From Antedon bifida (Eukaryota > Echinodermata > Crinoidea > Comatulida > Antedonidae), in contig OY727097.1 in NCBI GenBank assembly GCA_963402885.1, forward strand, positions 558,001 to 622,000: DNA of 64,000 nucleotides, written 5' to 3'. The notes beneath the pieces were generated by a model, which was not told the origin of the DNA, ran no database searches, and saw only the letters and a program-made list of their open reading frames with translations. Made by a program: the position numbers and the translations under genes. Shown here in pieces: positions 3,001 through 52,797 of the stretch; position 1 is the stretch's first letter, and every line of letters starts with the position of its first letter.

Positions 3001-6000
3001 ATACCAAACTTAACATCACAAGCCCCTTGGGGTTTCCTGGAGGTCCCTTTCATCTTCTTTCAATTTGTTTTACTCCTTTTTGTTGTATTTTTTTTGTTTT
3101 TGTGTATTGTTTTGATGAGATTCATAAAGAAAAGATTGATTTGAAAACAAAACAAGCGTTATTTAAATCTTTCACAGGTGAGATGATTAAAAGAGAGCGA
3201 AACGTTTCACAAGCTTGCGATTGTCGTGATGCACTTGCTAAGGCATTGTACGGCCGTCTCTTTAGTTGGGTTGTTAACAGCATCAACCAGCTTTTGCAAC
3301 CTTTAGAAGATGCACCAGCATCGGTGGATATTGGTGTTCTTGACATATTTGGTTTTGAAAACTTTACTAAAAACAGCTTTGAACAGGTATGAAAATATAG
3401 CTCCGTCTACACTATCCAACTTTAAAAAAAATGTTATGTGCCCATATATGGACATGATGATTTCATATTATTACTACCATATTTGGGCACATCACACTTT
3501 TTTGTCAAAGTAGTTTGATAGTGTTTTTTTTTTAACATTTGTGTAAGGAAAGATTGTGTGATGATTCAGAAAAACTTTCATCTTTAGTAAGAAATAACTA
3601 ATGATAAAGATATTCAATAACCAAAATTCAATTACTAATTAACATTTGTGTTTTAATAACTTTATAAAATACCTTTTTTTGGCAGATTTGTATTAATGTT
3701 GCAAATGAACAGCTTCAAACATTTTTCAATCGTCACATATTTCAACTTGAACGGCAAGACTGTGAGAGTGAAGGAATTAAGATGGACAACATTCAGTTTA
3801 CCAACAATGAACCCATTGTTAACATTTTTCTACAGGTAAGACATCAGCATCACATATATACATAGTTTACTTCATAATGTTTCTAATTGAAAGGCAAAAA
3901 TTAATTTTCTGATAACTGAAATAAAATAAACACCAATCGATCAATCAATCATAATAAGGAATAACAGGTTTTTTAAAGATTTGTGTGTATGCAAATGGCA
4001 AAAACAACACATGTTACAAGAGTTGTCAAAACAATATAGATTATCTGATATAAAAATCCTAAAAAGTAGGAAGCCTTTTGCCACTTTCCCCTGACTGTAC
4101 ATAATACAAAGGAAATAATCCGTAAAATCAAAATCTTTCATTACCCTCATACTTTATTTTAGCCATGTGTGCAAGTTAGATCATCACTATATCATCACTT
4201 ATTAATTAATATTATTGTTAAAAACACTTTGATTAAACTGCTTTCTATGCTGTACAATTAGAAACATGTTGGTATTTTTGCCATTCTGGATGAGGAAAGT
4301 CATTTCCCAAAAGCATCGGATAAATCCCTTGCGCAAAAGTTGCATAACGGTCCAGGAGCCACCGGCAAAGGCATCTACTTTACTCCTAAAGACAAAGGAA
4401 CCACATTCCAAATACTTCACTATGCTGGCCAGGTAAATGTAGTTTAAATTTCACATTTTTATTTTCTGATTATCTAATAAATCATTATTTTGTTAGTCCA
4501 TGACCTGTTTCTATTGTGAGAACATTACCTCAATTTTCTTGGCAGCAGAATGGAAAAAATTTCAAAGGTGATTCATTTTCTCTCTGAATAATGTTCGATT
4601 TTTGTCTTTTCCAGGTGAAATATGATTTAACAGGTGTTTTGGAGAAAAACAGGGACACTCTACCAAAATCAATCCTGTTCACAATGAAAAGTAAGTATTC
4701 AAGGTTTTTTATTTAAAAAAAATTGATCGTACCTAAATGCATTACCGTGATTAACTATACATTTTTTTTCATTTCAGCAAGTAACAGTTTAGTTGTCCGT
4801 GAGCTCTTTCAAGGTCGTCTAACGAGGACAGGTTCTCTGGCTCCTAGCGCAAGGCAACGGCAATCACGAAAATCACAAAAGAATACCCATGATGCATTTG
4901 AATTCTTTAAGAAAAAGAAGGCACCTGATGTGGCAAGAAAGGTAGTGTTAATTAACTGGTTGTGATGTGCCCAAATATGGTTGTGATGTGCCCAAATATG
5001 GTAGTGATATGCCCAAATATGGTGGTGACATCCTTATATGGGAACATCACATTTCTTTGTCACAAAAAGTTTGATAGTGTAGACAGAGCTTTAAAAGTTT
5101 CTGTTTTGCGTTTGTAGCTATAAAATAAGATTCTGCCAATTAACTACAATTAAAGTATTACAGTGTATTTATTTGTTACCATTTTTATTTAAATATAGAA
5201 ATTAATATTGAATTAAATTTATTTTATGCATTATTTCGTTCTTTGCAGCCATTAAAAAAGAAAGGCCCTCCTGTCAATGTTACTGAACGAAAAGGGCCAG
5301 CAACTGTTGCCTTTCATTTCAAGGTAAGCCAACATCCTTTATCCAATATTAATTTGTCCATTTATCTTTAAAATATGCTCTTGATTTATAATTCTTATAT
5401 TGATTTTTTTATCTTGTTTGCCACTGTTGTTTAGTTCTTCTACGTAACTTTACCAAGTGAAGAATAGATGTATAAATAATGTCAATATCTTTTCGAAAAA
5501 CCAACAACAAAAACCAAAAACTAACCTTGTAGTTTTGTTGTCCTGATCGGACAGTTTCTTCAGATAAATGACAAAAAAGAATTGTCAATTTATAACTAAA
5601 AACCAGATGAACATTTTTAGTCAATATCTTTCACTTATATTTTCATTTCAAAAACTGCAAATTGAAGTTTTCTGATTTCTACCATAGAATTCACTAGCCG
5701 AGTTGATCTTGAAAATGTCCAAGTGTGTCCCTCATTTTGTTCGTTGTATAAAGCCAAACACGACCAAAAAGCCTGACAAGTTTGTCCCAGAGTATGTGAT
5801 AGCCCAGATGCGATACACAGGCATCATGGAAACAACACGTATCAGGCAGCAAGGCTTTGCTATGAGAATTACATTTGACGAATTCTTGTCCAGGTAACAT
5901 TTAGAATATTTTCTTTTTAAGTTTCTAAACTATCAGTTTAGATTTTAACTGCATAAATTGCATAATATTAATAATTGTTATTTGTATAGGGCCTAACCAA

Positions 6001-9000
6001 AATAAATTTTCTCTAAAGTGCTACAATACAAGGCTTAAACTAGGTAGAAATTATGTCATAGATTAGATATAGCTAAGGCACATCTCATTATATTGCAATA
6101 CTTAGAGACATCAGATGGAATTTAATACTGTAGTATTGTTTCTAGGTATTACGCTCTAACATTAGGCAGTGTACCAATGAACAGCACTCTTCCAGCTCTG
6201 CAGAAATGTAAAAAGGCTCTGGAAGCATGTCAGCTGAAAGATTTCAAGGTAAAATTTTTTATATTTTTATATCATGTAAATACAATGCTCTCAGCTTCTG
6301 CTGCTTTTGAATTTTTGTTATACTACTGTATTTAAATAAGGATTAATCAAATTGTTTTCATCTTTTTAAAATTTTCTTTACTAAACTAAGGAAAAATTTC
6401 AATAAACAGTATTCCTAGACAGTTCCTTTAACTTGAAGAGAAGAAAATATCTATGTACTACCCTCTATAAGAGAATACATTCCAAAGATCTCTTTCTTTA
6501 TTTATTTGTATTAAATAAATAGTTGTACTAGGATATATAAAACAGTAAACTTAAACTACCTATTTACTCACTGCAGGGTTTAATTATACCAAGACTTTGC
6601 TGATGTGATAAATGAAATATATTATCATTTATTTATTTTTTTATTTATGCATTAAACACCACCATTCTTAATATCTAAGTACATATACTTACTGACAATA
6701 AAAGTACAAGTAAATCATACAGTATACAATAAAGTATATATGCTTATGGTTCAATGAACGCACATTTTAACAATGCACCAACTTAAGCTACTATGAAAAC
6801 AAAGTTAATTAAAAATAAAATTAAGTTAATCAAGTTGATTATTGATTATGTCTCCTGGCGATTGATAATTAGTCATGTGGTACATTGTTCATTTCTTTTA
6901 ATTCAATTAGAAATAAGTCTTCTTTGTTACTGGTGTTAAGTTCTTGTTAGTTCATGTGTTAGTCCTTCTTTGTCAGTTCTTTCATTAGGTTGGAAGTAAA
7001 AGATGATAATGATATAAATAGTTTTTAAATTATCAGCAGAATTAAAAGTGGTACACAACCTAAAGTTAAATACACTGAATGCCTAGTATGTTGCAATGTG
7101 TCTTTGCACCCAGGAGTATAAGTTGGTACCAATAGACAATACACAAAAACCTGAGCTGCACTGTTTAGAATAATTTATAGACAGTAAGGTGTAAACCCTA
7201 TTTTTATTTGTCATTTTTTCCCTAAAAATAATAATTTTGCAACTACAGTACATTAGAAGGGACACCTTCAAGAACTAACAAAGTGTCCCTTTATTAGGGT
7301 GTCCTTTGAATAGGGATTTGCTGTAATATTTGCCTCATTTGTTTCATTATAAAGCGTCCCATTAATAGAGGCCGGTGTCCCCTGAATAGGAGTGTCCAAA
7401 CGAGGACTATTGTATAATATCCATGTTGTTACTTACAATTGTAAGTAAGTAAATTGTATTATCACATTTCAATTTCAATGCTCCTTCTTTCTTTAATTCT
7501 CTACCTTTAAGCATTCCTAACTCTTACAGTTTCTTCTCCTTTAAATCTCTTTTGAAAAAACACTTGTTTCTCTCTCTCTGATTTTATTTCTTTTTATCCT
7601 TCTTTCATTGTAGGCCACTTCTGTATATTTATATTTATAGGAATAAATGATAATTTATTTATTTCTATTTAGCTCTACATTTTGTATCGAGCACTTTCGC
7701 TTTCATGATCTGCGTTAATTTTACCACGAATTATATTTATATATATTTTTTTTTTTAATATCTTTGTTAATTTTGTGTTTTTATAGTTTATTTTGTATTT
7801 ACTGTTTGTATTGTTTGAGGGTCCCTAATGATCAGCTGATGCTGGATGGACCACCCTCATAAAATATTGTTGAAATAAAATAAAAATAAAAAATGCATAC
7901 AGCAGTGTAGCTACAAACTAATCAGCCAATATAATTAACAGAATCTCATTTTAGTATGTCGTAATAAAGTACCTTACTTTATCTTATTGATTTTTGCAAA
8001 CACCATTGATCACATTTCCCGTGGTAATTTTAATACCTACCCACTTCCTATCCCTTTGGGGATAATAGACGGTAAACTGTCATTCCGAATTGGTTACCTA
8101 TTAAAGCAAACTACAGTTTAAGCTGCTGCTGTACTGTGTGATATTCAGTTTGTAAGCTATAGAGGCTGTATGTACGCTACTTATGAATGAGTATGTTTGT
8201 GGGGATGACCGCAGTCTATACTAAGCCAGAGGTTGAATCATAATAATTATACAAGCTCCTCTAAGCGCTACCAGTATAAGTGAGATACTCAATCAATTTA
8301 TCTCAATTCCAAGGGCTCTTTTAAATCATTAGTGAATATGTAGGAACAAGGTAAGTGGTGGTTTTATTCATTTTTTATCAATATCAAGCCAGAAGTGATT
8401 AGTATGTAATAAATGTGAGCGTTCTAGGCCAATGTTGACGCACAGTTTACCTTCATGCTCTAGCCTTTCGATCGGTAATTAGCGTTTTCAAGTCTTAGTT
8501 AAATACTTGGCATAATAATCAGTTATGAGACCATTTGAATTCTCTGACCTATATCTCGCGGCAACCTTTGCAGACCGGAATATTCATATATTGAATTATT
8601 TATTTTGCGGCAATTTACTGATTTAATTTGTTTACCTTATCATGTTAGTATTTTCTGTCTGTCTGTCGGCCAAATACAGGGTGCGAAAAAATGAACAATA
8701 TCTTAGACAAATTGATTTTAACTAAATAAATAATAATAAATCTAAATATGGCATAAATTGTGACCACTTTTAATCCATTCTCCAAAAGATGGTTCTCAAC
8801 CAAGTTTTGGATACACTTGTGTACGTGTGTCGCAAACAGTGTTTGTGCCATTGCAAACCGTTTGAATCAATAGTTATCTGAATTTCTCCTCTGCTAAACC
8901 AAATGAATGAAATAGGAGAAATTTTGATTTAAAAAAAATATTATATCATGTAAATGTTTACTGTATTTTTAAGCCTGTGTGCTCTGATTCATGTTTTCTT

Positions 9001-12000
9001 AGTGTCAGTGCCCAGGATGTTTATCTTTTAATTTAGTTACAGCATGATTCATAATTCCGTTAATTATCATGATTTCTTTTTACTTCCTTTTGTTCTAGTT
9101 GTACCGAGGGATAGATACGGTTATTAGCACACTTTTTACAGTACTTAACAGTATTATTAGATTATGTGATATTTTTAAAACATCATTTTTATGGTTATTA
9201 TATTAATATAATGTGTATATGGACAGAGCAAAAAGAAAGTAGTTTTGTTTTCGTGTTTGTTTAATAATAGCAATTTCTTTATGGCTGTTACTTTATTGTT
9301 TTGATGATATTGTTTTTGCTTTTTTGTTTGTATCTCCATTGAGATCCAGCCACTGATACCAACAGCATTGACATTTTTTTTAGCAATTTCGCCTTTTGAT
9401 TAATAAATAAAAGAGATTAACAAATATATAATTAGCATAATATTATATATAATAAGGCAATTCAAACACTTTTTGTTTTCAATTGTAAAGGACATGATAT
9501 TGTTTTGTTGTTTTGAATTGCTTGATGGATTCAATTGAAGAAATTGTGCTTCATTAGATAAGCCTACAAGAAGAGGCTTACCACTTCTTAATTAGTCACC
9601 TTGTTTAGTAACAGTTTTCTTACAATTTTCTTGTTAAGTTGGAAAGACAAAGCTCTTTTTCCGGTACTGGCATGTGGAGAAATTAGCTGCCCTTTGCGCC
9701 AAAGAAGACAAGAAAATTAACATCTGTCAGAAAGGTAAAAATTATTGGTTTTATTTATTAGTTCTAATTCCTTTTATTAACATGACCTTGCAGTGGTGAA
9801 ATTACATAGAACATTAGTCACTATCTTATTAATGTTTTGCTGTGTTATGCTGGAATAACATTATTGTTTATTAATGTAGCAGAGAATGAATCATTATCAC
9901 ATTATTATGTACAACATTAAGCCATGGTCTGCCAAATGGCTTAGGAATGACGATTCTGTAATCTTTTACTACATTAGGAATTACATGTTGGTTTTTGCAA
10001 GGATTTTACCACATTTTTTCATCACTTGTAGGGTGTTGAATTTTAATGTAGAATGCATTATAAATATATTACATATGATTTACAGTTTATATCAACTGTC
10101 ATGTTTATAGTAATGCTGTGTTTTGTATAATCCCAAGAGAATTCTTTACTGAACTATAGTTTGTGTTTTCTTTATGAAAAACAGAAACATAAATTGAAGA
10201 ATTTTTTTCTCTGTGTGTTTGTTTTCAATCTGCCCCATTACATTAGTAATACAGTGGTTCATGTAATTGATAATGTACTATGTTAAGTTAAGTCTGGAAT
10301 ACTTCTAGCATTCAATCATTTTAAACATTTGAAAATGTTTGTGTAACATTAATCTCCTTGACAAATTATCAATGTATAAAAAAAGAATAAAGCATCAAGC
10401 AGATATATCAAATGATGTAGTGAAAAAGGTTGTAAGATAAATCTTTTCAAAACACTTACAATGTAATGAAGAAACATCTTAGCTCTCAGCGAAGCATTTC
10501 AAAAACCATTACCTCATCTCAACTACGCATTTAATTTACATCTTATTAGCATAATTTATTTCAATGAAGGAATTGCACATGACCTTGAGCATAAGGATTT
10601 AGAGTTAGGATAAAAAAGATACTTTACTCCTTAGGTGGATTTTTACATTAAATTTTCATTTCATTTTATCATTTTAATTTAACAATCAGGGACAAGGAAT
10701 CTCAATAGACTGAGCAAACTTTAATAAAAAATTTGTTGACGTTGTTTTTCAGACAAAACATTCATCATCTAATGGAATCCCTTTGAATTTTAAAATCTGT
10801 CTACCCTAGCATCTAATTAGCATATCATTAACATAAATACAGTATTCACCTTTAACAATAATATGCATCTAATTAGCATAAAAGTATCATTTATTATTAG
10901 TATGGAATATTAAAATTCCCTATTCATCTAATTAGCATAATCAGCTACAGCATTCAACTTTCATTAAATATTCCAACTTCCCTAAAGCTCTGTCTACACT
11001 ATCAAACTTGATGTGATAAAAAAATGTGATGTGCCCATATATGGACATGATGATGACATCATCATTATTATATTTGGGCATGTCACTACCATATTTGGGC
11101 ACAAAACTAGTTTGATAGTGTAGACAGAGCTTACATTTTGCATCTAATTAACAGTATTAGCATAGTTTTGATATTAAATATCCACATCATTGGGTTGCTG
11201 TAATCCACTGTTCAGTTTCCCTCATTCTCTGCTGTACAATGAGCGTTTGATCTCTCAAATCCCTTTTTAACATACCCCCAGGATTGTTGAAATCGTGAGA
11301 ATATATTTGCCGTCTTATCTTATAAGACATGGATTATTCTTGTGTGTCTGCTTTCGGATTATTTGTAAACTTGAATTATTTGAACTTTCGACTTTTTGAT
11401 TTCCATTTTTTTTTTCTGTAAATGCAGGATGTGAAGTAGTCATGAAATGCTTTGTAATCCTATTTAACATCATTAATTTAGTTTTAAAAATAAAAATATA
11501 TATATCTTAAGCTCTGTCTGCACTATCAAACTTTATGTGACAAAAAAATGTGATGTGCCCTTATATGGACATGATGATGTCATATCACTATCATATTTGG
11601 CATATCACTACCATACTTAGGCACATCAAACTTTTTTGTCAAACTAGTTTGATAGTATAGATAGATAGATCTTAAGACTGGCATGTTTATATGTTTCCTT
11701 TGGGATTTAAAATTTATTTTTTTTGTGATGAGGTCTTCAATTTTAGCTATATTATTATTTTTTATCCTCACTTACTTAGTGTAATTGCTAATTAACTAAT
11801 GACTCATTAACTGAAACTGTCAAAATATTGTGACAAACTTAATTAGGATTGACCTTTGACCTGAGACAGGCACCTTGATGAACAGATGGTAAAGTTATCA
11901 CTCAACCAAAGTGAGATTTACTACCTACTTCCTATCTACACTTCAGCATCTGTACATTTATAATTTGCTCATCTAGCAAGGTACACACTTCAAGTGTAAA

Positions 12001-15000: not shown

Positions 15001-18000
15001 AGTTCTGTTTGTTTTCGGTTAACAGGTGAAAACGCCTTAAACTGAAAATTCCTGTATCCCTGTATATTATTATCGTAATAAATATTATTTAGTGAGACTG
15101 TTTTACTATTAATTACAATATTTTTAAATATTATAGTATTTTCAAGTATTAAGAAGAGGTACCTCTCTTCAATTACCTTTTACCAGGAAACCTAGGTCTA
15201 TAAAAACTGTTGCAATATGTTATGCTTTTTTTTTATAAATGTTCAATTTCATCTGATGTTTTGCCAAGTATTAGAACTAGGGAATTCATGTCTTCTTCCC
15301 CAGCAGAACACAACACTATTAGATGACAGGTCTAACCTTCATAATAATATTTTAAGCCTTTACTTATAATGTTAAGGAAATAATTATCTTGGGTTGAACA
15401 CATCAGCATTCATCAAAATCAGCTACAATGTAGTTTACAAGTATAGTATTGTTGTTAATCGAGACAAACATTATCAATCAATTGATGTTTTGCAGAAAAT
15501 GTTCAAGAACATATTAAAATTGAAAATAAATGGAATGTTCAAGAAAACCGTTACCTTATTATAATATCATGAGCAGTATATGCTACAGGGGAATGAACGA
15601 CAATAAGGTGTATTTAACATTAATCTAGAGTTAAATTGCAGCTGTTTGGTTAGTTATTGGGTTTTGTTGCCCCAAACATTATGTTTTCCTTCATGCCTGA
15701 ATTTTAAGGTTTAAACTATGACCGAATATAATATCATGATCACCCTAATTTCTAATTTTGGACTTTGGTAAATTAAGTATAATTCCACCCCCAACAGTTA
15801 CATCATAATCATCTTAGATCATAATACACTCCAATTTTAGGCCTACTGCCAACCACCCTTAACTTTCTGTACTCACAAAATAAAACCTAATCAATAATTG
15901 TTTTAAATTTAACCAAACATTTTGCTTATTTATTTTTTATTTGTTGCAGTAATCCGTGGCTTTATTGTGAGAAGAGAATTCAACCGAAAGCTTGAGAAAC
16001 TAAATCGACAGAGAAAGTACGTTGCCAGCTTCCTTCAAGATTTACAAACACGAGGAAACGCTTTCCATAAGGTAACGGTTCCTGGCAATCCAAGTCTCAT
16101 ATTAAATTCTGCTTTTCTTACAGTAGACCTACAGTATAATCTAGCCACAAAAATACAATAATACTTTTTGTGCACCTTTGCTTACACAAGTTTTAAATTC
16201 TCACAAAAAATAATGTTTAGTTTACTTATAAACTTTGAAAAGCTCTTTATTTCTGTGCCAACTTTCAATTCCTTACTCTAATATTTGTTTAATGTGTTTT
16301 TCATATCTGTTTCCTACTAAAATGGAAATTACAATGTGAGTAGTATATCCAGTTTCTGATGAATGATAAACATTTCTCTTAATATTTCACTATATGTTCA
16401 CTACTGTTATACAGTAAAACTGGCCCTATACTTTGGACACCTGTTAAGCTCTGTCTACACTATCAAACTAGTTTGAAAAAAAAAAGTGTGACGTGCCCAA
16501 ATATGGTAGTGATATGCTCAAATATGGTAGTGATATATGAGCACATCACTTTTTTTTGTCACATAAAGTTATTCAGTGCAGAGAATTACTTTCTTGTGAA
16601 ACAAGGGACGTATGTTTTAGCACTATGGCCAACCCTAATTCTGGGAACACCCCTATTAAGGGGACACTTTGTTGTGTTCTAACTGTAATTATCAAAATTC
16701 CAATTGATACTTGTGACATTGTTCTTTTTTTTTGTTTCCTATTTTTGTAGACCTTTGTTGAACTGAATGAACATGACACTATAACAGATCTGGAAGAAGA
16801 ATTAATTAATATTGCTGATGATAATGGTCAAATATGGTAAGTCTTCCTTCCATCTCCAGTGACCGCTTGACCACTCAGCTTGATTGATACTTAGTTCTAA
16901 TATATTAGAGTTCTTTAAGGAAACACAAGACTACCATTATTTTGAATATCAATAATGTTTAAGTGGCAGTTTATATTACACAAATAATAGCAACATTATT
17001 TTAACAGTATAAAGCCTTGTCTACACTATCAAACTTTATGTGACATAAAAATGTGATGTGCCCATATATGGACATGATTGGACATCACTACCATGTTTGG
17101 GCATATCACTTCCATATTTGGGCACATCACACTTTTTTTTGTCAAACTAGTTTGATAGTGTAGACAGAGCTTTAGGCTAGGTTTATGTTACACAAGAGTT
17201 TTTGTGATGTGAATTAATAATTTCTGCTATATTATTAACACTAGCTTGGGAATCATGTAAAAGGTATTCTACTGCAGTTACTGCAGCAACTACATTTTGC
17301 TAGGACTGCAATATTCTATGAATATTCTATGATAACCACAAACAAACTGCTAAAAAGAGTAAGCGTAGTTACTGCATTAACTGCAGTAGAATCATTTTGA
17401 CATGATCCTAGAACTGCAATATACGATACTGGTAAATAATGATGGGTTTTGATATTAGTCAACATTATCTTGTTTTTAGTTTTCTTGTTTGTTTTTTTTC
17501 ATTTCTGGAAAACGCTAATAATGCATCAAAACTATCTCTTTAATTAATTTAAAACAGATTATACTACTGTATAGTCATGATTCAAGCAATCTGATTGGTC
17601 CATATTTGAAATTATAAAAATGTTAATTGCTTGGCAACAGAACTTCACAATATATGCAAATATAATCCAAGAAAAGCTTACTTTTTTCCAAAATGTTCAT
17701 TTGTACTTTACAATACTTAATTTTAGGATTGAATCAGATCCCACATATATGATAATGCACCCTATTAGGTAAGGTCAAAGGTTAACTCACATCTCTCGCT
17801 TAACTTTTATATAATGTTCTTGCAGTATGTTATCTATGCTTTTAGATTAGTAAAATGATGAATTTAGTGATGAGTGGCTGTGCTTCAATAATTCATTCTT
17901 TTGTTTGAGCTGAACTACTGTCTTCTAAGTATTTGTATGCTAAGATTTGATTGATGACATTCTAGAATAGATAGTACTGCTTTGTAGTGAAAAACATAAT

Positions 18001-24131: not shown

Positions 24132-24290
24132 GAAAAGTAAATATAAAATATATCTTTGTTTTAATATTTATTTAAAAAATAATTTAAAATACACCATATT
24201 GTATTGAATATAATAATACTGTAATTAGTGAGTAATACTGAACATTTACATGAATAGGAAGCTTACAAGGAAAGATCTAGGAACATGTTA

Positions 24291-24329
24291 GTATCAGTAC
24301 CATATTTGGGCATATCACTACCATATTTG
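24291..24329 (-). mobile_element. MITE family fragment (copy 12)
   Basis: Only the internal unit ACCATATTTGGGCATATCAC and part of a second one remain. One perfect CArG box. Confidence 0.5.
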
Positions 24330-24413
24330 TGGTTTCTAAGTTCAGACGACAGTACATAAAAAGCTGTGAAAACACTTCATGCTCAAACTAGAAACAATGC
24401 AGTGCAAGAAATA

Positions 24414-24689: not shown

Positions 24690-27600
24690 TTAATTGGTGG
24701 TTAATGAATTCTTAATATACTGTTGAATCTTCTGTATGTCCTCTGGACTAGTTCTACAGCAGCCTCCTATACACTTAGCGCCTAACTGGATCCATTCAGG
24801 TACATAAGATTGCCAATCTGCAACTGCATTTTCACCAGTCCACCTAAAATGATAAAGTTAAACAATTCAGTATAGAATTCAAATGTGATATCAAATATAT
24901 GCATAGCCTAATTATATAAAAATTATACATTTAAGTTGAAACTTAATTACTATGTATGGAAACTAATAGGCACCAGCCTGAACTTATTCCATCAAGCATT
25001 AAGTGTAGCATAGTTAGCATGAACTTACCCGCATCCGGTCCAATTTTCCCTTGTGTTAGGGAACACAACAAATGGTTTTCCACTGCTTGCTCCCTGTGCA
25101 CTTTGCAAGAGGGGCGTAACGAAAGCAGGAGGGCAACAATTGATGCCAACAAATGAAAGGTTTGGACAAGTAGAGATGGCTGCAATCGCATCCCGGATTG
25201 ATTCACCATGACATGTTTCAGAACCATTCTGTAAACATTGAGAATTTCATTAATAGGGACATACAATTGTATAAGACTTAGTGACTGCAGCTTTACTAAA
25301 GCTCTGTCTACACTATCAAAATTTATGTGCCTATATATGGACAGGATGATGTCATATCACTACCGTATTTGGGCACATTACACTTTTTTTGTCAAACTTG
25401 TTTGATAGTATAGACAGAGCTTAATATAAGAATGTAGCTAAAAAAGTATAAGGGGTAGGTGTCCAAAACTTGATGGTAGGTGAAAGACAACCAGTACTTT
25501 CATTAAAATTGTTTGTGCTGGTGGTATGTTGAAATTAAACTTGGGTGGAAGAGCTTAAAATATTAGTCTTGGTGGTGGATGACCTTGAATGTGAGTGTCC
25601 CCGCCCACTACTACAATTACATGATTCAATGACACACCCAAATGGCATTATTTGTTAAATTCTGTGATACAGTGTGACATGTGACAGCTGTATCATTTAA
25701 CTTACCTTGCAGATAAAAGCATTGTATGGTATCATACTGTATGATACAGTGTCACAAATTGCATTATTTGTAAAAATTCTATGATACAGTGTGACATTCT
25801 ATGAGACTTTGTATGGTATCATACTGTATGATACAGTGTCATATGTGTCATACCACTTACCTTGCATGTGAAAGCAAGCCATCCAGTGACATCTGGAAAT
25901 TCTTGTAAAAGTGACACAATAGCCTCTGCCTCCTTGATGGCTGGTATAGTTTCAAAAGACATCATCTTAACACCAGACTTCAACAAAGCTTCAATCCTAC
26001 CTCTATGCCAATCTTTTAAATCCTTAAAAAGAAAGTAATATTTAGAAACAAGATATTAACTATAAATAAATCAATGTTTTATGGCTTTTAACCTGTCTTA
26101 CAGCAAAAATGATATTTTGACAAGACACTCCCATATAATAATAGGTCATACTTATATAGCGCATATAAGCAAGCTCTCAATGCGCTGTATATATAATGTA
26201 CTAGGAAGGATATCCACTCCTGGATGATCGATTACCCGCCCCAGAGTGTAAATTAAAACCTTCCCAGTACAATTCCAGTTATTTATGTATGGATGTGTTT
26301 AATAACAAAAATGCTGTTATAATAGATTTGTATAGTTACCTCTACTGTCATATCATCAACATAGTTGCCATGGTATTCTGACATGTTATGCTGGCAGGCT
26401 CCATATGGACCTATAGCACCTACTGCTATCGGTTTACATCTATCTACAAACAAAAAGATGAATCATAAAAAAAGATGAATAAAGTATTAGCTTTTTTTTT
26501 AGTTACAGAAAATACAAATTGTATGTTTTAGGCTTCAGAGTAATGTCTCTGAGAATGTACTTAATAACTGTTATTTGCTCCCAATTTCCTTGAATTCTAT
26601 GATCACAAACATGAGAACCTTTTCTGTTGTGCTGAAAGCTTGTTGGAATTTTCTAACTTAATCAAAATCAAATTGTACAGAACTGGATGATAATTTGAAT
26701 TCCACAAAACGACATATGTATAAACTTTGGTCACAGATAGTCACAAATCAAAAGCCCCCTAATATCTGGCCAGTATGATGAATGTGCATTAAGCTCTGTC
26801 TACACTATCAAACTAGTTTGAAAAAAAAAGTGTGATGTGCCTAAATATGGTAGTGATATGACATCATCAGGTCCATATTTGGGCACATCACATTGTTTGT
26901 CACATGAAGTTGATAGTGTAGACAGAGCTTTACCTTTAGTCTGAGCAGGTTGTAGTGATGACCAGAAGTCTTCAATTGCCTCCACAGCAATCTCACCACT
27001 TCGACTGATTAAGTTGAGTGCTTCAGTTTTAGACAAACCAGCATGAGAAACAAACCCTTCTACAGAGGCCTTGCAATTTAGAAAATATAACACCAAGAAA
27101 TAATACCAGTAGTATTCTACTAATCTATTAAAGCTCTATTCGCACTGAGCCCAGATTGTGGTCTGTTCACAATGAGCCCAGATTGTGGTCTGTTCACACT
27201 GAGTCTGAGTGGATGGTGGCCGAAAGAAAAATTGTGGAAAATGGGTGTAATATTTAACAATAGAATAGAACCGTTTTGGATTTTGTATAAAATGTATGTA
27301 TATGAAAAAGTAGAGTTTTCTCCAGCTACCAGGACCAAATCTGGACTTCAGAATGAAATAGTGTGAACTTGTAGAATAAATTAATTAGTTTTTGTTTTAG
27401 CAACCTTCATTTCTTACCTGGTAGGTACTTGTCTCGATAAAATCACAACCTGCTTCTAAGAAACTAAGGGAAAAAAAACATATTAATTTAGAGAAACTAC
27501 ATTGCACTAGTATACAGAGTTGATGCTTTTTATGATTTGTTTGGGTTTTCACTGTTTTCACATTTAACTTTATAATATGGATTAAAAAATACCTTTTATG

Positions 27601-38100: not shown

Positions 38101-41100
38101 GACATGTACTACCATTGTTTATGATTCAGATAGCCATGATTACTCTTTTGTGCAGGTGTGACATTAACTTAACAAGAATAACAACTGGTATTTTTGAGGC
38201 ACCTAACACTTCATAAATTAATAAATGTCTATGGTTGTAATGTGAGAATGTATTGTATTGTTTCAATGCTCTGAACAGCCACAGTAGTTGTTCATATCAA
38301 CAGTATCATGGCTCATCTCATTGTACAGTACATATAGTATATCCTAGTTTAATATTTTACCAGTAATATGTCTATGTTTCTCTAGACTGCTATAAAAACT
38401 AGAGCTTCAGGAAAAACATGTCTGAACTTGATTCAAGCAAATCAAGCAGTTAAACAATTAGTCACTTCTAATTAGCATGTTGTACTTGTTTGATTATTAT
38501 TGATTATTTTGTTATACATGTTTAAGCACTTCATTAAAAAAACATGCTTTTTTGGCATTATTTCACAGGCAAATAGAAACAATATGTACCCAACCAAAAG
38601 AATGTGTACTTCTACTGTATAGTGTATTATAATACTGAGCATGTTAGGTTACGACTTTTAAAGTACATTTTATTAATGTATAATGAGGTCATTGTGTGGT
38701 GATGAACTAAGTTATTGTTAGATGTCTGTGTAATGTCATTTAAAAACATATTCAAGAAACATTAATGTATTCAAATGATATAGTACATTTACCCTTATGT
38801 TCTAATTTACTGTATGTTCCACATTATGAACAATAAAAAACTTTACATTACATATTTTAGACATACACCTTTTTGATTAATTACCTCATAAAGTTGTTTT
38901 ACAATAAACTTTACCTACAGCAAGTTTTTGATTAATAGATGTTTTTGTTTACCATTATTTTATTCTGACACTAGTGGTAGAAGTTGCTTCATAACAAAAG
39001 CTGAAGAATGCAAATTTACAACCAAAAGCAGTGATTTAACAGCAGAAAACCATAAACAAATGTCTAATAGGAATAGCAAGGAAGACCACACTTTGGTTGT
39101 GAGAATACTTCAGTTGGCCATTATTGTATGGTGATGTTGATTTATCACAGCTCGCACAATAGAGTGCTTGCATTTTGTTGTTTGTGTAGCCTTTTAACAT
39201 AGTTCACCACACTGAATATGGAAACAATGTTTTACCCCATAGTCTTGGTGACTGACTGATAAATAAAACAGTACTTTTAGGCACGCAAACATAAGTTGTT
39301 TTGGGTTGGTTCTTATGAGGCCAAACATGCTTTAGGCTGGTTGCACAATTATACTTACAAGTTACATCCATTTACCTTAATAACTGTTTGATGGTACACT
39401 GATTAAATGTGACTGAATTAATTCTATTGCAATCAGTATGGTTCATTCTTTGTCTACTTCTTATTCTGCTGCCAATTTAAATCTGTCTAGTGGTTTATGT
39501 GGTTTTTGACTATTTTGTCTCAAATTGGTTAATTGTCATGTTTTGTCATTAGTACCTCTTTCATCTGCTGATGGTAAACCTCACCATTAACGTCATAAAT
39601 AGCAATCAACGTTAGGAGAAGAACACTTTCAATAGTTCGCATCGGTGCTTATAGACTAGTAGATTAATCAACAAACACTCCTAAATATGATCTACATTTA
39701 CACAACTGTGTAAGGCATTATGATGAGTCATGTTAATATGCTAGTACCTTTTGTGAAATTCAGACTCTTAACATGGGGTAAAACATGATATATCTGTGTA
39801 TACATACAGTACTGTTACATGAACAGACCATTGTTCACTTTTAGCTACCAGATCACCTTGCTGCCCCGCTTATGATGCTCCATCCTTTTCCTATAACAAT
39901 ATTAATCCCGTAAAATGATGACATTAAATTGAGGTAATAAAAGTTTATGTGAAAATTTGTGTCTTCACCTCTTCTTTTAATTTATCTGAAGAAAGTTAAA
40001 GTTAGTCTTTCCTGTAACTTTCCCCCTACTGTGCTATGCTGTGAAGATAATGAAATGATGGTACTCAAGATGAGTTCATTAACCTATATACATACTGACC
40101 ATGTCTGCCCCTTCCTTCTTATTCTCCCTCAAGCAATCTCCCCCTGGCAACGTTACCCAGACATAATTACCTTATTATCGTGTCGGTAAGCACAAAAGCC
40201 TTCTAATCCCACTCTGACTTCCTTTTCAGTTTTGTCACAATATTCATCTGTTTTGTTTAAAATCCCAACCAGCTGTTTACTGGGTTTTGTGCACCGATTA
40301 ATCATTTATTTCAAAGGCAGTTCTTTTGGAATAATATATTATTTTTCACAGTGAAGAATATCACACTATATATGAGAACAATGATTCGATTGATGAATCC
40401 TTTTAAGAATAAGAACTTACGATGCTCAAGCTTGAGGGAAAATGTACCGTATATTGTTGGTTTCAATGAAAACACAGAAGAAAAAGTACAGCTCTGTCTA
40501 CACTATCAAACTAGTTTACAAAAAAGTGTGATGTGCCCATATATGGTAGTGATATACCCAAATATGTTAGTGATATGAGATCATCATGTCCATATATGGG
40601 CGCATCACATTTGTTTGTCACATGAAGTTTGATAGTGTAGAAAGAGCTTAAGAATATATTAAATTATTTAAATTTATTTAAACTATATAAACCGGATGAT
40701 TTAATATCATCTGTAGACACAATGGATTTATATCCCAGTCCTAATAGTCTAATGTATTCTCAACTACTCTTATCAGGTTGTTCCTATCTGGACTCCATGG
40801 TATACTTGCAGCAATAAAGTGTTGAGTTTGTTTATGGAATTGGTAATATAAAATAAGGTACATGTAAACAAGAGTATTGCTAATGAGGCCAGCGGGAAAG
40901 ATCAAGAATGTCAAAAGCTAATTTAATGGCTATAAATTGTAGACCTTGATCTCAAGAAAGTACTTTTATGTGTTCACACACAGGAAAATAGAAAGCCTGT
41001 AGTTTAAGCATAGAGCTAACAACAAGCCTCACGATTGAAGTCTGTTCACACGTGAAAGATGCTATTATGAATAAAGAAAAATAAATTAAAACAGTAACAG

Positions 41101-44100
41101 TAAATTAGTTTGTTCTCAAATGCAAATTTGTGATGTTGTTTCTCAGATTATTAATATGGTTATTCATCTTAACCATTGTAGCATATAAATGAAGTCACAA
41201 ATTTTAATTAACCTATAATTGACAGACTGCTTACTTTACTTACGTATGAGTTTATATCCCTAAAGCATGTGTTCCAATTAAGTATGATGATCCTAGTAAT
41301 GTATATTGTATCAAGATATTATAATTGAAATATGTCACACTTTCTATAACGTATAAAGAATACTGTTAAACAACACTGTCAGTAAACGGTGGCTGAATTG
41401 AGTTTAGAATTCAATTTTGAAATCAAAATGGCGAAATCAAAATTTTCCATTGACAAGTACAGCTTTACAGTATTCTTTTTTTTTTTTCTTCTTCTCTTAT
41501 TGGTCTAATTTAAATAAACATGTTTAGAGAAAATAAACCAATCTCTCATCAAATATGTTTAAATGTGAATGCATGTCTATTTTTGGATTTCCACTTTCAA
41601 GTGTTTCATAAAATGTTTTTTTTTCTGTATGTTGTCTGGCGTTAGACATGTTTTATTTCCTTTTCTCTCTTTGAAATTAAACAGCAGAGTTTATTTACAC
41701 AAGATGGTGTTTTATAGGACACATCCAGTGCTTTATGACACATCTTGTTCTTATCTGTTGTTTTAGCAGTGTTCTGTATATTATTCTGTACACCACAGGT
41801 ATTCATTGATGGATAAACCTTCCTTTTGTAAATGTTAAAATTCCTAACTTATGTGTGTGAAGTCATTCTGTTGAAATATATGTACATTAGACGTGTTTAT
41901 TTATTGAGACTACTTCATGATCACCTTTAAACTCTGGAATATTTAAACAGTTCACTTTTGGTGTAAATATTGTACTGTATTATCTTGGTGATGTCTAGTC
42001 CCAGTCAAAGAAGTTAGTCATTTACTTTCCTTTATACTTCCATCCAGATCATTTTTCCTTCCAATCTGCTGTGCATCCTCAGTTTCCTTTATGTGAAGCT
42101 TCAAGTCTGTTCTTAACTATTCATACCAGATAAATGCACATTTACAGTGTATACTTTAGTAATCATCATACGATAATTAGTCTAAAGACTGGAATTCTTA
42201 ATCTTACGAATAGGTAGACTTAACTACCACAAATTGCAATCGAGTCCTCCTTAATTACCTCTACAATTTGTTAGATAAAGAAATATAAGCCATACTCAGC
42301 AATGTAATGAGGTTAAAAAGGAAGTTTAAAATGGTGTATTGACAATGGTTAAGTAAAACAGACACAACAGGCCTGTCATTGTATGTATCCTGTAGGAAGT
42401 GGTTTACAAATCAATTTAATTGGAAAGAGTACCATTGCCAAGGATACCAACTTTGATAATTTCAAATTCAGCATGTTCATGCAGTTTTTGAAAATGTGAC
42501 ATTCATTGCTTAACATCATATATACTCATTATGCAAATGTGCCCATCATATTTTATTATTTGCTCTTTTTACAATGAAATTTAAACAAATTACATTTTCA
42601 AACTTTGTGATTGAAGTGTGGAATTGTCCTAGTGTAATATTAGCCCTGACGATGGAATTAATGCATTTCAGCTTAACACTTTCTTAAATTCTGCCTGTTT
42701 ACTTATACCAATTTGATTTAGCTTTTTCTTGTATCTTTAGTTAGTGTATTGAGATCCCGTCACTGATATCCACAGCATTGTAATTTGCTTTTGAAGTATT
42801 GTAATCTATAATAGATAAATAATTGTGTTTTTATTTTATATTTTGCAGATTACTTTCTAGAATTACTAGAACAGTCAGAAAGTGACTTCACTAAAATGTT
42901 TGAACATACATATGGGGATCTGTATAAAGACCATAAAGATATCTTCAGCGATCTTTACGTGGATCTTCGCCAATTCTACCAAGGCAAAATTGATGATCTG
43001 GAAAAAGCTTTGGATGATTTTTTTGGAAGTCTTTTACTTAAAATGTTTGCGTTACTTAATCCTGGAGTGCACTCAGATGAGTTCATGGTCTGTATTACCG
43101 AAAATATGGATGAACTTAAACCTTTTGGAACGATACCAGAAGCGCTGTCGACGCAAATGAGGCGGTCTTTAAATGCAGCTAGAACGTATGTTCAAGGTTT
43201 GGATGCGGCTCGTGACATCATCATAAAGGCAACAAAGGTATTGTATTATTGAATGAAATTTATTTAAAGTTATCCCAGATTCTGAAATATTGTTTTTATT
43301 TTCAATTCACAAGCTGTTAATAAAGAAGTTTCTTTATGTTTATCAAATGTTGAATATAAATAATTTTTCCAAACATACATATCACAACTGTAGATAGAAT
43401 AATAATGAGGGCATTATTTTAAAATCTATGAAAAGAATAAACTAACACACACATCATTGTAAAAGAATATAGTTTGTTTAAATCCAAAAATAAATGTGAA
43501 GGCAGCATTGGATATGAAAGCAATTCCTACATCTCATCATGATGCACAGCCTAGTGCCTGGATTCCAGTGCTTTTTAATTTAAAAACCTATCTATCATGT
43601 CAGCTTGTGGCAGGAATATGGCAGCCCATTCATTGTTATACTTTATATTCTTGTTTTTCTTCTTTCTCCACTGGGTGTTGAGGTTGTAAAAAAGTTCTTT
43701 ATAGGTTAAAGGGGCATTTTAATATTGATCTTTACATAATTCATTCCTTAATGCAATGAACTGCACATGGTTGGATTGGCTTCACTTCATATTGAACTTT
43801 AATCATAAATCATTTATTGTATCATTGCTGTTGGTGGCGAAAAAACAGTTTTGCAGTTGGAAAACCTATGATAGTCATTGACATCAATATTTCGTTGGTT
43901 ATTTCCATTTTTTGTAGTTAATACAATTAGTTTACATTGGCCTATTTTGTACATGATTTCCTCAGTATATTCAGTCAAAATGATATTTAAAACATTAATA
44001 GTCTACTTGTATGTTCATTTTGACCACAGCTTAATAATATTACTCAGCCATCTTTTGACCAAATCCTTTACAAACTTCATAATCAAAAACATAAGATTTA

Positions 44101-47100
44101 GTTACTGCTATATTCTGCAGTACATTGCACATTACAGCAAGTTGTCTCTAGAATGTTGACAAGGAAATAGTTAGGGCTTTTGATCTACCTTTGATCCATT
44201 GCTTCCTCCACACAATTTCCACCATACTTTCTTCAAGCCTGTGCCTAGTTTGACTGGCAGAATAATTATGCCCAATGGACAAGCATACTCTAGGCCTACA
44301 CTTGATGACATCTCTTGACTGGCAGAATAATTAAGCCCAATATAGCAGATGTACTCTTGTTTAGTATCTCCCATCAGGGGATAATTCACTAGCCTAGACA
44401 TATTCCTAACAACCAGCTGTGGATTTGATATTAAACCCATGTGGGACATTTTATTCAAAACTGTGCATTGCTGTCAGTAAACTGCACTTTCAATTTATGT
44501 TGATCAGAAGAATTATGAATACATCATTGACCACATACAGTACTCCAGCTTATATCATATACAACATTTGTCTAGATTACTGTTATTTATACTGATGTAT
44601 GTATATATGACTTTCTGAATTAAAAACTTAACCATTCTCTCTAAACTACACAATTGTAGATAATTAACTACTGTCTAAATATTTCATAATCAATTGCTGA
44701 GCAAAATTTATCAATATTAGTTCTAGGAAAAATTGTGAATTGACCAAATTAGAGTAATCATCTTTTAATATGAAGGAAGGTTTCAACGTTAGGTCGGCTA
44801 TTGTTCATTGCACAGACCAATAATTATGGAAACGACACTGTAATGTAATATGTACAAAATATTCTTATTGAAAAGAATCATACAGTGAAAATGATGTGGA
44901 GAAAAAAGGCCTTCAAAATTGAGGTCAATGAAGCTTGAATTGCAGAATACTGTACAAACCAAAATGTGGAATCAGCTGTGTTTGGTCTTTTTTGGAATCT
45001 GTTAGGAGATGTAAATTAAGATAGAACTGCAAATATACTAGAAGGTTATGATGAAACACAATTAAATTGTATTATTGCAATTGGTAAAAAAGATTTTTTA
45101 CAGCCATTTCAACTTCTTCTACCTCTTCTTCTACTACCACTTCTTTTTGAAGCTTTTTTTGCCAGCATAAACCGGTCTTATACGTATATAAATTTAGTCA
45201 TCCCTAGTCTGGAACTCAGCGTTTTTCAATTGAGTGACTCAGTTTTGTTAACAAACTAAAACCCATTATAGTAATTTTTTTTAGATTTAATAGTGTCATT
45301 ACGGTGACTTAGGGCTCAATTAAATCTCAGTGTATTTGCAGTTTCTTCATTTTATCTAATAATACTAGGCGACTTGAGGTAATGAAGTCCATCATGTGAT
45401 TCATACAAATATAAATCTAACCTATTTTGTGAGGGTTTCTTATCTGCCAATTTGTGAGTTGATAAATTAAAGTTACGAGTTTAAAAATGTTAGTTACGAG
45501 TTGGAAAATGGTAAACGATAGTTGGAAAATGCGTGTTCCAAATTGTGATCTGCAACTCAACATACAATCCTCCACAATTCTTGCACCTGTTTACAGTAGT
45601 TCACACTAATACACATATTCTCCTTTTATGGTTTCCAATGTACTAGTAATTAGCGTTGAATTGAAGGCAATGTTTCATGCTTCAGAAAAAATCAGTTGCA
45701 TTTGTAACCCTTTGATAAAAATAACTTCTTTATAGTAGCCTACAGTATATAATAAGAATAAGAGAATGTGAGAGATGATAACTTAAAATACAATACTGTA
45801 CATTGCATTAAGAACATACACTAAAATAAATTATCAATTTATATTTTTTCTACCCGTTCGTAAAAATCTTAAAGCTGAAAATTTCAACATCAATAGATTT
45901 TGTTGACTCATGGGAGATGATTTTTAATCAAAAGAATCTCATTACTTCGTTTTGTCTATAAAGTGTCGCAAAAATTCAAAGAAGTATGTATTCCCATGAC
46001 AACTCACGGCTTTACGCCTTTATTTTTTTCTATTATTTTATTCTTTTGTTATAATCTGGCTTTAATTAGTATTAAGTCAAAAAGTAATTTCCTTTTTTCA
46101 TACAAGATCTATTACAGTATAAAGCTGCTCTGTCTACACTATAAAATTAGTTTGACAAAAAAAGTGTGATGTGCCCAAATATGGTAGTGATATGACATCA
46201 CCATGTCTATATGGACACATCACATTTTTTTGTCACATAAAGTTTGATAGTGTAGACAGAGCTTTATAGTACATAATGCTTCTTTTTCTTATACAAATTT
46301 TAATGTACTTTACATTAACAGTTTAAAAAAAATTAAATTTTCAACAAATTCAGCCTGATATTCAGCTAAAATTATGTTTTTAGAATAAAAAACTCATCAG
46401 CAATTTCTACCAAAATAGTTTGTGTAGTTTTTCTCACTCTAGATCACAGATACTAATCTGTTGGCTGACATAATTGTGCTAAAAGCTATTTGGCATATTA
46501 GCACATCTTTTGTGTCCATTCAATGGGTCATTCAGTGGATGGAATGCCATTCACTGACATGGCCATAATGATCAAGATAGCTGGACATTGTTCTAACATA
46601 ATGACCATTCAATCACCATTGTTCTCTTAATCTTTGTATGTTTGCTTAAAATGAATAATGTCCAAAATATGTTGGTTAAAACAAGGAATCTATAGATGAC
46701 CAGATGCCTGTGTTTAAAAACTCTTGTTAGAATTTGTGAGATGCTTTAGAAAACAACCTTCATACATTGTTGATTGAAAGACTAAGAATGAATGAATTAT
46801 CGTCAATTATTCCATGATCTTCAAAACCAACATGTTAATGAAACTGATTGTATGTGTTGTGAGTCATAAAGAGGCATGACCGGTCACAATGTGATTAATA
46901 ATCAGTGTTTACCAATCTCACTACATCTTTTCATCCATATAGTAATACAATCACTCTATCACTCTGCTGTGTAAGGACTGATTATTCATGTATGATGTTG
47001 TAGGTTGCTCGAACAAAATTCATAATTCACCAACAATTTCAATTTGTTAATGTGATAAATTGGAAATAAGTTATTCATAAAATCTTTCTTTAGGCTCACA

Positions 47101-49190
47101 TTATCCAAACTGTCAGAGGGGTATTAGTTGTAATGTAATCGTAATACTACAGTGTACTAGCAATTGTTTACCTTACTATTTAGTATAAAAAAAAGATATC
47201 TTCAAAGGTACGTTTCTACAATACTTTTTGAAAATCTGACAAACCTGTGTTTTTGGTATCTTATGTTCAATTGGTTTTCTAAAATCTCAACACAGTCTCA
47301 GTAAATCTCCCAAAACAAGATTTTTGTTGTCTAAAAAGTAAAAAAAATATTAATTCAAAATCCAATCACTTTCCTTACAGAAAAAACACCATCCTACTAT
47401 TTTAAGTCTTTATATCTCCTCTGTTTTTGTTACCACGGTAACTGACAAATCTATTAATAAATCTTACTCTGGCTGAAAAAAAGTGTATCATAGGATGCTT
47501 TTAACATACCACCTGGCTACAATATCCAGGATTATACTATGATTGTGATAGGCTATGATATTATTAGTTCATAATGTATTCCATTTAAAAGAGGGATTAT
47601 CTTTGATTGACAGGGACAGATTCATCCATTATTTCCAAAAATGGAATACATTAAAATATTAAATTATTATCAACGGTCAAAATGAAGTATACTCTATTCT
47701 TATATAGTTCAATTTTAGACAGACTTAAAGAATATTTATATCATCAACCCAAAAAGACTGGCAACTCTCCCCCAAAATACAGCCACAAGACTGGCAACTC
47801 TCCTCCAAAATACAACGACAAGACTGGTAACTCTCCCCCAAATACAGCCACAAGACTGGTAACTAAACTCTCCTCCAAAACACAGTGACAAGACTGGTAA
47901 CTCTCCTCCAACAAAACACAACGATAAGACTGTTAATTCTCCTACAAAATATTTATTAAAAGCTACCTCCCCATTATTATATTTCACTGTTGTTTTATAG
48001 GAATCACCAACACAAGAATGCAAATCTGCTTTGATGAAGATGGAGTATTGCTCCTCATGTAAAGGAATATCATCAGATGTAGCGCCATGTGACGGACTTT
48101 GTACGAACATCATGAAAGCATGTCTAGCGCAACAGGCCGAACTTCAAACAGAGTGGACTAAATTCATTGGTAAGTATGGTCTGGAAATCTACTTCTCGCA
48201 TGTTTATGATGTCAGCGACTTCATTATTCTTTGTTCTTTGTTATTCTGTTATGGAGTGAGTGCAGAATCTGTTTGGGCTTTAGCCTATTCTCATTCCTGG
48301 TTATTTTTACATTGGTGACCGAATAAATATTATTATTATTATTATTATTATTATTGCAATTTTAGTTTTCTTTATCATTTTATTTAGCTACATTATGACC
48401 GAGTAACCAGGTTACGGTATTACTTTGTTAAATTTTAAAGTTAAATAGAAATAACAATAAGTGCATGATCCAAGCAATTTTTGTTACAGTGCATTTTGAC
48501 AATTTTCTTTCAGTTAGTATTCCAAATCGAGTTTCGTTTGAATAATGATGATGATAATGTATCTTCCTTTGTAACATTTATGTCATAGAACATTGACTGT
48601 CTCTTAACACATGTGATGTCGTCCTCTGTAACTAGGTCGCAACAGACACACACACTCATTGATAAATGTATTTGAATGATTTAACGAGTTTTAAATTCGT
48701 TAGCTAGATACAAGCATTTATGTAATTGGCATTTAGAAGGCAATGACACAGATATCAAGTAAATTTACATAATTGTAAATAATTCCACAGAATATGTGAC
48801 TAAAGTTATCAACATATCATTTAATACCTGATGGAGATGCTATACACAAATGCTATATCCAATCAACATTATATCTACATTAAATTTACTACTAACCAGA
48901 TAATTTACTGTTTTGTATCATTGTTACTTTTGCAATAATTTCCTGTAATAGCTACAATGTGGTATTAAAGCAATTTATTAATAAACAAATGAACAAATCT
49001 TATATTCTGACGCCTAATGGTTTATTTCAACAATGATGTAAATGTTTTTTTTTATGTAGAACATATGTTGAAACTAGGAGATAGAATGGGAGCATCTTTT
49101 AACATAGAAACAGTTATTGATTCAATCAATGTTAAAATATCAGAAGGAATCATGAACTATCAAGAAAATACACAGCATGTAACAGAAAAA
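29121..49190 (+). CDS. Glypican, GPC4/GPC6 (dally-like) type, 3'-partial
   Basis: Cell-surface heparan-sulfate proteoglycan core protein, normally GPI-anchored and a modulator of Wnt, Hedgehog, BMP and FGF signals. Exons: 29121-29298, 31397-31555, 42849-43237, 48001-48169, 49060-49190. All phases agree; 342 residues. Exon 1 gives an ATG and a hydrophobic signal segment (LFVILTVFINLIVTV). Exon 2 carries CGTGFSCC, the glypican N-terminal cysteine motif. Exon 3 carries MFEHTYGDLY and the helical N-lobe. Exon 4 carries YCSSCKG...PCDGLCTNIMKACLAQQ, the conserved cysteine block. Exon 5 carries FNIETVIDSINVKISEGIMN, close to GPC4/6. Exon boundaries match my memory of vertebrate GPC4/6. The C-terminal exons, Ser-Gly attachment sites and GPI signal lie beyond 64000. 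Confidence 0.93.
29299..31396 (+). other. Glypican intron 1
   Basis: 2.1 kb, AT-rich, no exon seen. Holds a strong hairpin at 31216-31297, about 100 bp before exon 2. Confidence 0.6.
31216..31297. repeat. Hairpin-forming inverted repeat before glypican exon 2
   Basis: AGTTCTTTTTGCAAAGGCAA... (31216-31246) pairs with 31264-31297 with a 3-nt difference in A-run length and two mismatches. The loop is 17 bp. It may be a small foldback MITE. Confidence 0.65.
40500..40649 (+). mobile_element. MITE family copy 9
   Basis: Nearly complete, 150 bp, both terminal repeats recognisable (left GCTCTGTCTACACTATCA, right TAGTGTAGAAAGAGCTT). Two perfect CArG boxes (both CCATATATGG). Confidence 0.8.
42749..42780 (+). 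repeat. 32-bp sequence shared with 9339-9370
   Basis: TTGAGATCCCGTCACTGATA followed by TCCACAGCATTG matches 9339-9370 at 28 of 32 positions. It lies 69 bp before glypican exon 3; the other copy lies about 270 bp before a myosin exon. Confidence 0.5.
44248..44358 (+). repeat. Two-unit direct repeat, period ~66 bp
   Basis: TTGACTGGCAGAATAATTAT with following GCCCAAT recurs at 44314 with minor changes. Confidence 0.6.
46132..46264 (+). mobile_element. MITE family copy 10 with TA target duplication
   Basis: 133 bp, flanked by TA at 46130-46131 and 46265-46266. The left terminus has a small insertion (AAGCTGCTCTGTC). One perfect CArG box. Confidence 0.85.
47754..47950 (+). repeat. 32-38-bp minisatellite before glypican exon 4
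   Basis: Six units starting AAGACTGG(C/T)AACTCTCC and ending in CAAAATACA(G/A)C; unit length varies from 32 to 38 bp. The first three could be read as KTGNSPPKY repeats, but the length changes break the frame and the array lies 50 bp upstream of an acceptor, so it is intronic. Confidence 0.85.
48329..48355 (+). repeat. (TAT)n microsatellite, possible LINE tail
   Basis: About nine ATT units follow GGTGACCGAATAAATA, the usual form of a non-LTR 3' end with a trinucleotide tail. Located 160 bp after glypican exon 4. Confidence 0.45.
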
Positions 49191-52146: not shown

Positions 52147-52270
52147 CATTCATTCATTCAACTTTTTTATTTCGGAATACCATGATGATATAATATATCC
52201 ATAGCAAAAAAGAAGCTTAATCTAAAGAAAAAATTATAAAGATAACAAAACAAAGAGTTGAGGTTGTACA
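52147..52270 (-). mobile_element. LINE 3'-end fragment with (TGAA)n tail
   Basis: On the minus strand the sequence ends in GAAATAAAAAAGTTGAATGAATGAATGAATA, the same tail type as the full-length LINE at 54053. Upstream sequence is too short or diverged to show coding. Confidence 0.45.
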
Positions 52271-52644
52271 GTATATTACAGACAAAATATATACTGTATA
52301 ACATTCATACATAAAAAATAAATATTCCTATCAAAATATTTGTTGAGAACGTTAATAATTGTCGTTTAAATTCTCCTTACTTAGGCCTCTTTGAGTAGAA
52401 ACATTCCTTCTTCTTTCTCCACCTTCTGTCAATCTAAAATGCCTCCAGCTGACTTCAATTCAATAATCTACACCTGCTGATCAAGCTTAGAAAACAGGAA
52501 CAAACCATTGGAAATATATTGTACGCCTCGATGGGTAATAAGACCTGTATTTTGTACCACCTTAATAACAAGTCTGTAGTATAATATTAGATTCCAGAAT
52601 ATTGTATACTGAATATATGAAAGTAGTATGTTTTGTACATCTAA

Positions 52645-52797
52645 AGCTCTTTCTACACTATCAAGCTTTATGTGACAAAAAAATGTGCCTATATGGAAAT
52701 GATGATGTCATAACACTACCATATTTAAGCATATCACTACCATATTTGGGCACATCACACTTTTTTTTGTCAAACTAGGATAGTGTAGAGAAAGCTT
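52645..52797 (-). mobile_element. MITE family copy 11 with TA target duplication
   Basis: 153 bp, flanked by TA at 52643-52644 and 52798-52799. Right terminal repeat partly deleted. One perfect CArG box. Confidence 0.85.

Follow-up and report, generated by a model that had tools for sequence, protein, structure and literature searches.

A high-copy hairpin transposon of Antedon bifida carries SRF-like CArG boxes, most probably as passengers

We sought to explain why a 64-kb stretch of the 315.6-Mb Antedon bifida genome (C10:558001-622000, hereafter the window) is so rich in perfect CArG boxes, that is, in CC(A/T)6GG sequences of the type bound by SRF. The first-pass annotation of this DNA had described a family of miniature inverted-repeat transposable elements (MITEs) that scatters such boxes through a myosin locus. 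The family and the scattering both hold up. The window contains 25 perfect boxes where 5.2 are expected from shuffles, and 18 of the 25 lie inside 12 copies of the element (one internal fragment included), in agreement with the annotation's count of about 18; all four box variants that it named are present. In our judgement the element is very probably an ordinary high-copy, non-autonomous MITE, perhaps of the Tourist type, whose potential SRF sites are carried along as passengers rather than as switches.

The excess of boxes might be nothing but the base composition of an AT-rich genome, and the 7 boxes found outside the copies, set beside the 5.2 expected for the window, are what such a background would supply. 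Within the copies, however, the density is 11.0 boxes per kb (18 in 1,632 bp) against 0.11 per kb outside, and genome-wide the box occurs 65,912 times, whereas the pattern read in reverse occurs 17,178 times. The shuffle, the in-copy density and the reversed-pattern counts together refute base composition as the cause, and we regard its chance of being right as negligible.

Read by eye, the window holds 11 MITE copies, seven of them two-ended and four with one recognised end, besides the internal fragment (Table 1). This bears out the earlier figure of at least 11 copies and one fragment, and the terminal 20-mer of the element is matched 18 times in the window at up to 3 mismatches, where chance would give 0.02. 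For a larger sample we assembled 99 sequences (the window plus fetched copies), which yielded 74 two-ended copies and 33 single ends when ends were paired at spacings of up to about 900 bp. Seven of the two-ended copies came from the window, two from 11 systematic 10-kb stretches and 65 from C1:0.07-2.98 Mb, the last selected for one exact end. One further fetched stretch (L008) was left out since it overlaps another (L007), and the single ends, recognised at up to 5 mismatches and some of them perhaps due to chance (for example that at window position 10792), were excluded from the analyses.

The 74 two-ended copies are typically about 140 bp long (111-185 bp in 67 of them, with a full spread of 62-255 bp), which is too short for a transposase gene and below the limit of about 600 bp usual for MITEs. 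At either end lies an imperfect terminal inverted repeat about 60 bp long; the two can be told apart as A and B arms, whose consensus sequences are identical in 56 of 62 aligned columns. One A arm is combined with one B arm in 70 of the 74 copies (40 AB and 30 BA, against 2 AA and 2 BB). The CArG box forms the inner end of each arm, as GTGATGTGCCCAAATATGG in A and GTGATGTGCCCATATATGG in B, and is repeated within 21-bp internal units, CCCAAATATGGTAGTGATATG, that lie between the arms in numbers of 0, 1, 2, 3 or 4 (7, 31, 31, 4 and 1 copies, respectively). The module common to both arms and the internal units reads GTGATGTGCCC-A(A/T)ATAT-GG. Tandem repeats with a period of 20-21 were detected in 7 of the 12 window copies, and two copies folded as single strands (26791..26930 and 46125..46264) formed near-complete hairpins with strongly negative z values (Table 1). 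Mean divergence from the consensus is 7.2%. With terminal inverted repeats, short length, high copy number and a short target-site duplication, the element belongs to the MITEs as already known, and what is striking about it is the module that resembles an SRF site.

The first-pass annotation had suggested counting copies across the genome, nearly all of which is assembled in eleven contigs of 19 to 37 Mb each. The exact terminal 20-mer occurs 14,079 times (7,096 forward and 6,983 reverse; reversed control 0), which places the family genome-wide. Of 60 two-ended copies picked for their exact left end, 15 had an exact partner end as well; at that ratio there would be about 56,000 recognisable ends, equal to 28,000 copies. 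In the systematic stretches just four copies showed an end when up to 4 mismatches were allowed, which scales with wide error to about 11,000 copies. From these two extrapolations we estimate the family at 10,000 to 30,000 copies, or about 0.5-1.3% of the genome.

How much of the genome's supply of boxes this family accounts for can be gauged from the TGC that precedes the box in the element. In the two-ended sample 76 of 94 boxes carry TGC on one side and none on both; in the window it flanks 16 of the 18 boxes in copies and none of the 7 outside, and in the systematic stretches 6 of 20 boxes. Genome-wide, TGC precedes the box on either strand 26,474 times out of 65,912, or 40%; the reversed control of the TGC-box gave 161, a figure probably depressed by the CG that it contains. 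The figure of 40% is the direct one, and since only 76 of the 94 sampled element boxes carry TGC, the family's share may reach about half. Copies hold 1.27 perfect boxes on average, and 19 of the 74 hold none. Boxes also recur, spaced about 91-92 bp apart, in a 91-bp satellite of 14.5 copies with 98% matches that adjoins a MITE copy (L006:1-1326, C1:453578-454903), which means that satellites, too, contribute boxes to the genome-wide total. The unit sequence of this satellite differs from that of the MITE.

If the boxes were kept for SRF, then they should have decayed less than the sequence around them. We therefore compared sites base for base in the 148 arms, from column 21 onward and with gaps set aside; columns 1-20 were omitted because copies had been selected by one exact end, and the A-run because of its gaps. 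G/C sites were kept at 498 of 557 positions in the box and at 1469 of 1665 outside it (p 0.49), and A/T sites at 799 of 843 and 2731 of 2858 (p 0.35). In 115 internal units the CC of the box was the least-kept part (81-83%), with the GG at 90% and other G/C sites at 85-94%. The first-pass annotation had itself stated that its proposal would suffer if the CArG sequence showed no more conservation than other parts of the element, and base for base this is what both the arms and the internal units gave. The decay of the copies looks mostly neutral, although a sample of this kind would not reveal selection on a small subset of copies.

The target site bears on how the element moves. The annotation had reported TA target duplications. 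TA is right as far as it goes but incomplete, since the bases preceding 114 intact ends in window and genome copies (C in 53, T in 102, A/T in 72/39, A in 110) read mostly C-T-(A/T)-A, and a 3-bp TWA duplication fits many copies. Both termini are intact in 41 copies, of which 19 have identical flanking triplets (TTA/TTA in 11, TAA/TAA in 8) and 32 have TNA on both sides. Within these 32 pairs, the 19 identical over three bases exceed the shuffle mean of 13.4 (p 0.009), so that the third base at one end tends to agree with that at the other. A 2-bp TA duplication, as in Stowaway or Tc1-mariner elements, fits the TAA/TTA pairs but leaves that agreement aside. The middle base of the triplet is often unduplicated, and in one direction: a left TAA is combined with a right TTA in 11 of the 41 intact pairs and the mirror case in none (16 and 3 in all 74 copies). 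An end base of the element may travel along, or there may be two modes of insertion. A TTAA duplication of the piggyBac type was rejected, as a left TTA with a right TAA occurs in 3 of 74 copies and in no intact pair. Judged by the flanks, the TWA duplication of Tourist/PIF-Harbinger MITEs is favoured over plain TA, though not decisively.

Tourist-type MITEs, too, are short and have terminal inverted repeats; their target is TWA (PMC12595863), to be set beside the C-T-(A/T)-A that the flanks here mostly read. The genome contains 150 scored matches to the Harbinger-type DDE transposase (PF13359). Many of these matches have equal score and frame length, as expected of near-identical copies, and many lack stops. 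On C8, near 21.5-22.2 Mb, they form a dense cluster in which each has one stop. We infer that the MITE is moved in trans, presumably by a transposase whose preferred targets are C-T-(A/T)-A and which is most like the PIF/Harbinger (Tourist) group, and that the module has a role in transposition. Each transposition would then copy the CArG box, and later mutation would erase it.

Several observations weigh against a passenger box in an ordinary Tourist-like MITE. The fit to SRF is unusually good: a published SRF consensus is ATGCCCATATATGGWNNT (PMC2553773), with which the B arm agrees at 17 letters out of 18 and the A arm at 16, and a chance passenger need not show this. Taken as a 10-base block, the A-arm box still reads CC(A/T)6GG in 39 of the 74 copies. 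The other 22 blocks of that arm are kept in 24-39 copies, and the box ties with the highest of them; all three blocks that share its G/C content fall below it (34, 30 and 31). Many of the other blocks in this comparison cross the gap-prone A-run. The window, with its myosin gene, is also denser in copies than the average, with 11 in 64 kb against four in the 110 kb of systematic stretches. On the side of superfamily, a clean 3-bp duplication would not yield the TAA/TTA flanks of 11 of the 41 intact pairs, and element ends (at up to 5 mismatches) were absent from the 12 PF13359 loci of 3.3 kb each that were inspected out of the 150 matches; both points would set the element apart from Tourist-type MITEs.

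The first three of these points also favour an explanation in which the MITE disperses working SRF sites, with tens of thousands of near-ideal CArG boxes put in place and a subset taken up as enhancers. The fit to SRF's published preference extends beyond the 10-bp core into the flanks, which gives substance to the SRF-type nature claimed for the boxes by the annotation. The 26,474 boxes with the element's TGC prefix show the scale on which such sites would have been laid down, and the genome has three MADS-box matches (one with a stop inside the matched stretch) at two loci, as candidates for SRF or MEF2. Against this, the base-for-base tests show no excess conservation of the box, and comparable copy densities recur on C1. 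The block-wise picture is itself mixed. The B-arm box, intact in 36 of 74 copies, is average, with 6 of 23 other blocks (20-42) equal or higher, including both of the same G/C content (39 and 38), and when ranked on exact retention the box comes 5th of 41 in A but 21st of 42 in B. Both boxes exceed the estimate under independence (0.31 and 0.25), yet the blocks of equal G/C content just compared with them exceed it too, because damage is clustered by copy. Judged on their sequence, the boxes are chemically plausible as SRF sites and give no clear sign of being kept for SRF; we think it improbable that the MITE disperses working sites.

The passenger explanation has a more specific form, to which we give not quite an even chance. 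In this form the CArG-like module is a repeated subterminal site to which the transposase, or a protein acting with it, would bind, and the resemblance to SRF sites is coincidental. Its repetition in both arms and in the internal units is what such a site would show, and other DNA transposons carry repeated subterminal motifs. The 12 inspected PF13359 loci, none of which has the element's ends, count against it. Most simply, the module would be a structural or transposase-recognition repeat. The element might instead exploit the host's SRF, for example to reach open chromatin or for germ-line expression of a source copy, and the extended SRF match and the presence of often several boxes per element would suit this. 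The 19 two-ended copies with no perfect box, possibly lost after insertion, do not, and we consider such use of SRF decidedly unlikely.

Plant genomes offer precedents for a transposon family that multiplies binding sites, and they lend some support to dispersal of working sites here. Arabidopsis RC/Helitrons carry CArG boxes bound by the MADS protein PHERES1, with evidence from chromatin immunoprecipitation sequencing (PMC6914339). Like those elements, the Antedon family spreads CArG-type boxes of the kind recognised by a MADS-box factor, but it is a hairpin MITE of an animal. In Brassicaceae, MITEs amplified E2F sites; about 85% of E2F motifs there lie within transposons, and plant MITEs also carry MADS-box motifs (PMC12595863). 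The about 40% of perfect boxes with a TGC flank is comparable in kind, although the factor is another one, and for the plant sites binding to E2Fa is reported. Judged by the title of a paper cited in PMC5615363, a MITE of the clam Donax trunculus is similar in containing tandem repeats. All these likenesses are of description. A literature search with four strings of the element gave no match, and among the literature matches listed, judged by title and the opening of the abstract, none concerned an animal transposon with SRF or CArG sites; the window likewise had no Rfam match at the gathering score. A single hairpin MITE family that is the source of about 40% or more of an animal genome's perfect CArG boxes, with SRF-preferred flanks, could be to animals what the MADS/transposon networks are to plants, whether as a source of new SRF enhancers or as a genome-wide sponge that titrates SRF; this strikes us as a long shot. 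If the boxes are bound, then a large part of the SRF sites in an animal genome would go back to one transposon, and its tens of thousands of almost identical boxes at scattered positions would amount to a natural experiment on the conditions under which such a site works. If they stay unbound, then anyone scanning this genome for SRF targets by motif would find mainly passengers of a transposon.

A special link between the element and an actin-motor gene, as the first-pass annotation proposed, is not supported. The span from 3399 to 52797 is no single myosin locus: frames for the myosin head lie at 2.6-3.4 kb and glypican frames at 42.8-48.3 kb (Table 1), with one copy between two glypican exons. 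The first myosin frame scores 33.1 bits, just below the Pfam cut-off of 33.3, and the nearest solved chain to the second is myosin-VIIa (E 4.3e-15). At most six copies (3.4-17.2 kb) would fall within the myosin gene, if the proline-rich frames that reach to 20.6 kb form its tail. Exact forward ends number 4 in the window, where the genome averages 1.4 per 64 kb. When a 64-kb window is slid along C1:1-2.98 Mb, however, a stretch that itself averages 1.8, at least 4 are found at 18.6% of its positions, so clusters of this kind are common. The tie to the myosin gene is therefore rejected on copy positions and C1 density, not on gene-set enrichment.

Table 1. MITE copies and protein-coding exons in the window (window coordinates).
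Feature	Position	Strand	Description
MITE copy	3398..3525	-	left end present, right end not recognised; boxes CCATATATGG, CCATATTTGG
MITE copy	4950..5091	+	right end present; CCAAATATGG x3 and CCTTATATGG x1; 21-bp tandem units
MITE copy	10985..11132	-	two-ended; 2 boxes
MITE copy	11509..11665	-	diverged right end; CCTTATATGG
MITE copy	16446..16575	+	diverged right end; CCAAATATGG; 21-bp units
MITE copy	17012..17172	-	two-ended; flanks TAA/TTA; 2 boxes
MITE internal fragment	24285..24331	-	1 box
MITE copy	25299..25422	-	two-ended; flanks TAA/TAA; no perfect box
MITE copy	26791..26930	+	two-ended; flanks TTA/TTA; CCATATTTGG; hairpin fold z -11.1
MITE copy	40489..40649	+	two-ended; upstream of both Pfam glypican-match frames; CCATATATGG x2
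MITE copy	46125..46264	+	two-ended; between two glypican exons; CCAAATATGG; hairpin fold z -10.0
MITE copy	52644..52797	-	two-ended; flanks TAA/TTA; CCATATTTGG
Myosin motor-domain exons	2572..3392	+	two stop-to-stop open frames; PF00063, E 2.5e-8 and 7.9e-21
Glypican exons	42815-43252, 48001-48318	+	open frames; PF01153, E 3.2e-39 and 1.2e-19

The window contains further repeats. A 26-bp tandem repeat of five copies with 96% matches (18314-18443) lies just upstream of a 424-codon proline-rich frame, and a 33-bp tandem repeat of 4.7 copies (47754-47911) just upstream of a glypican frame. An element resembling a long interspersed nuclear element occupies 54343-57411 and 57968-58900 on the minus strand, with an upstream 310-codon frame, for which Pfam gave no match, and an uninterrupted 1022-codon endonuclease-reverse transcriptase frame.

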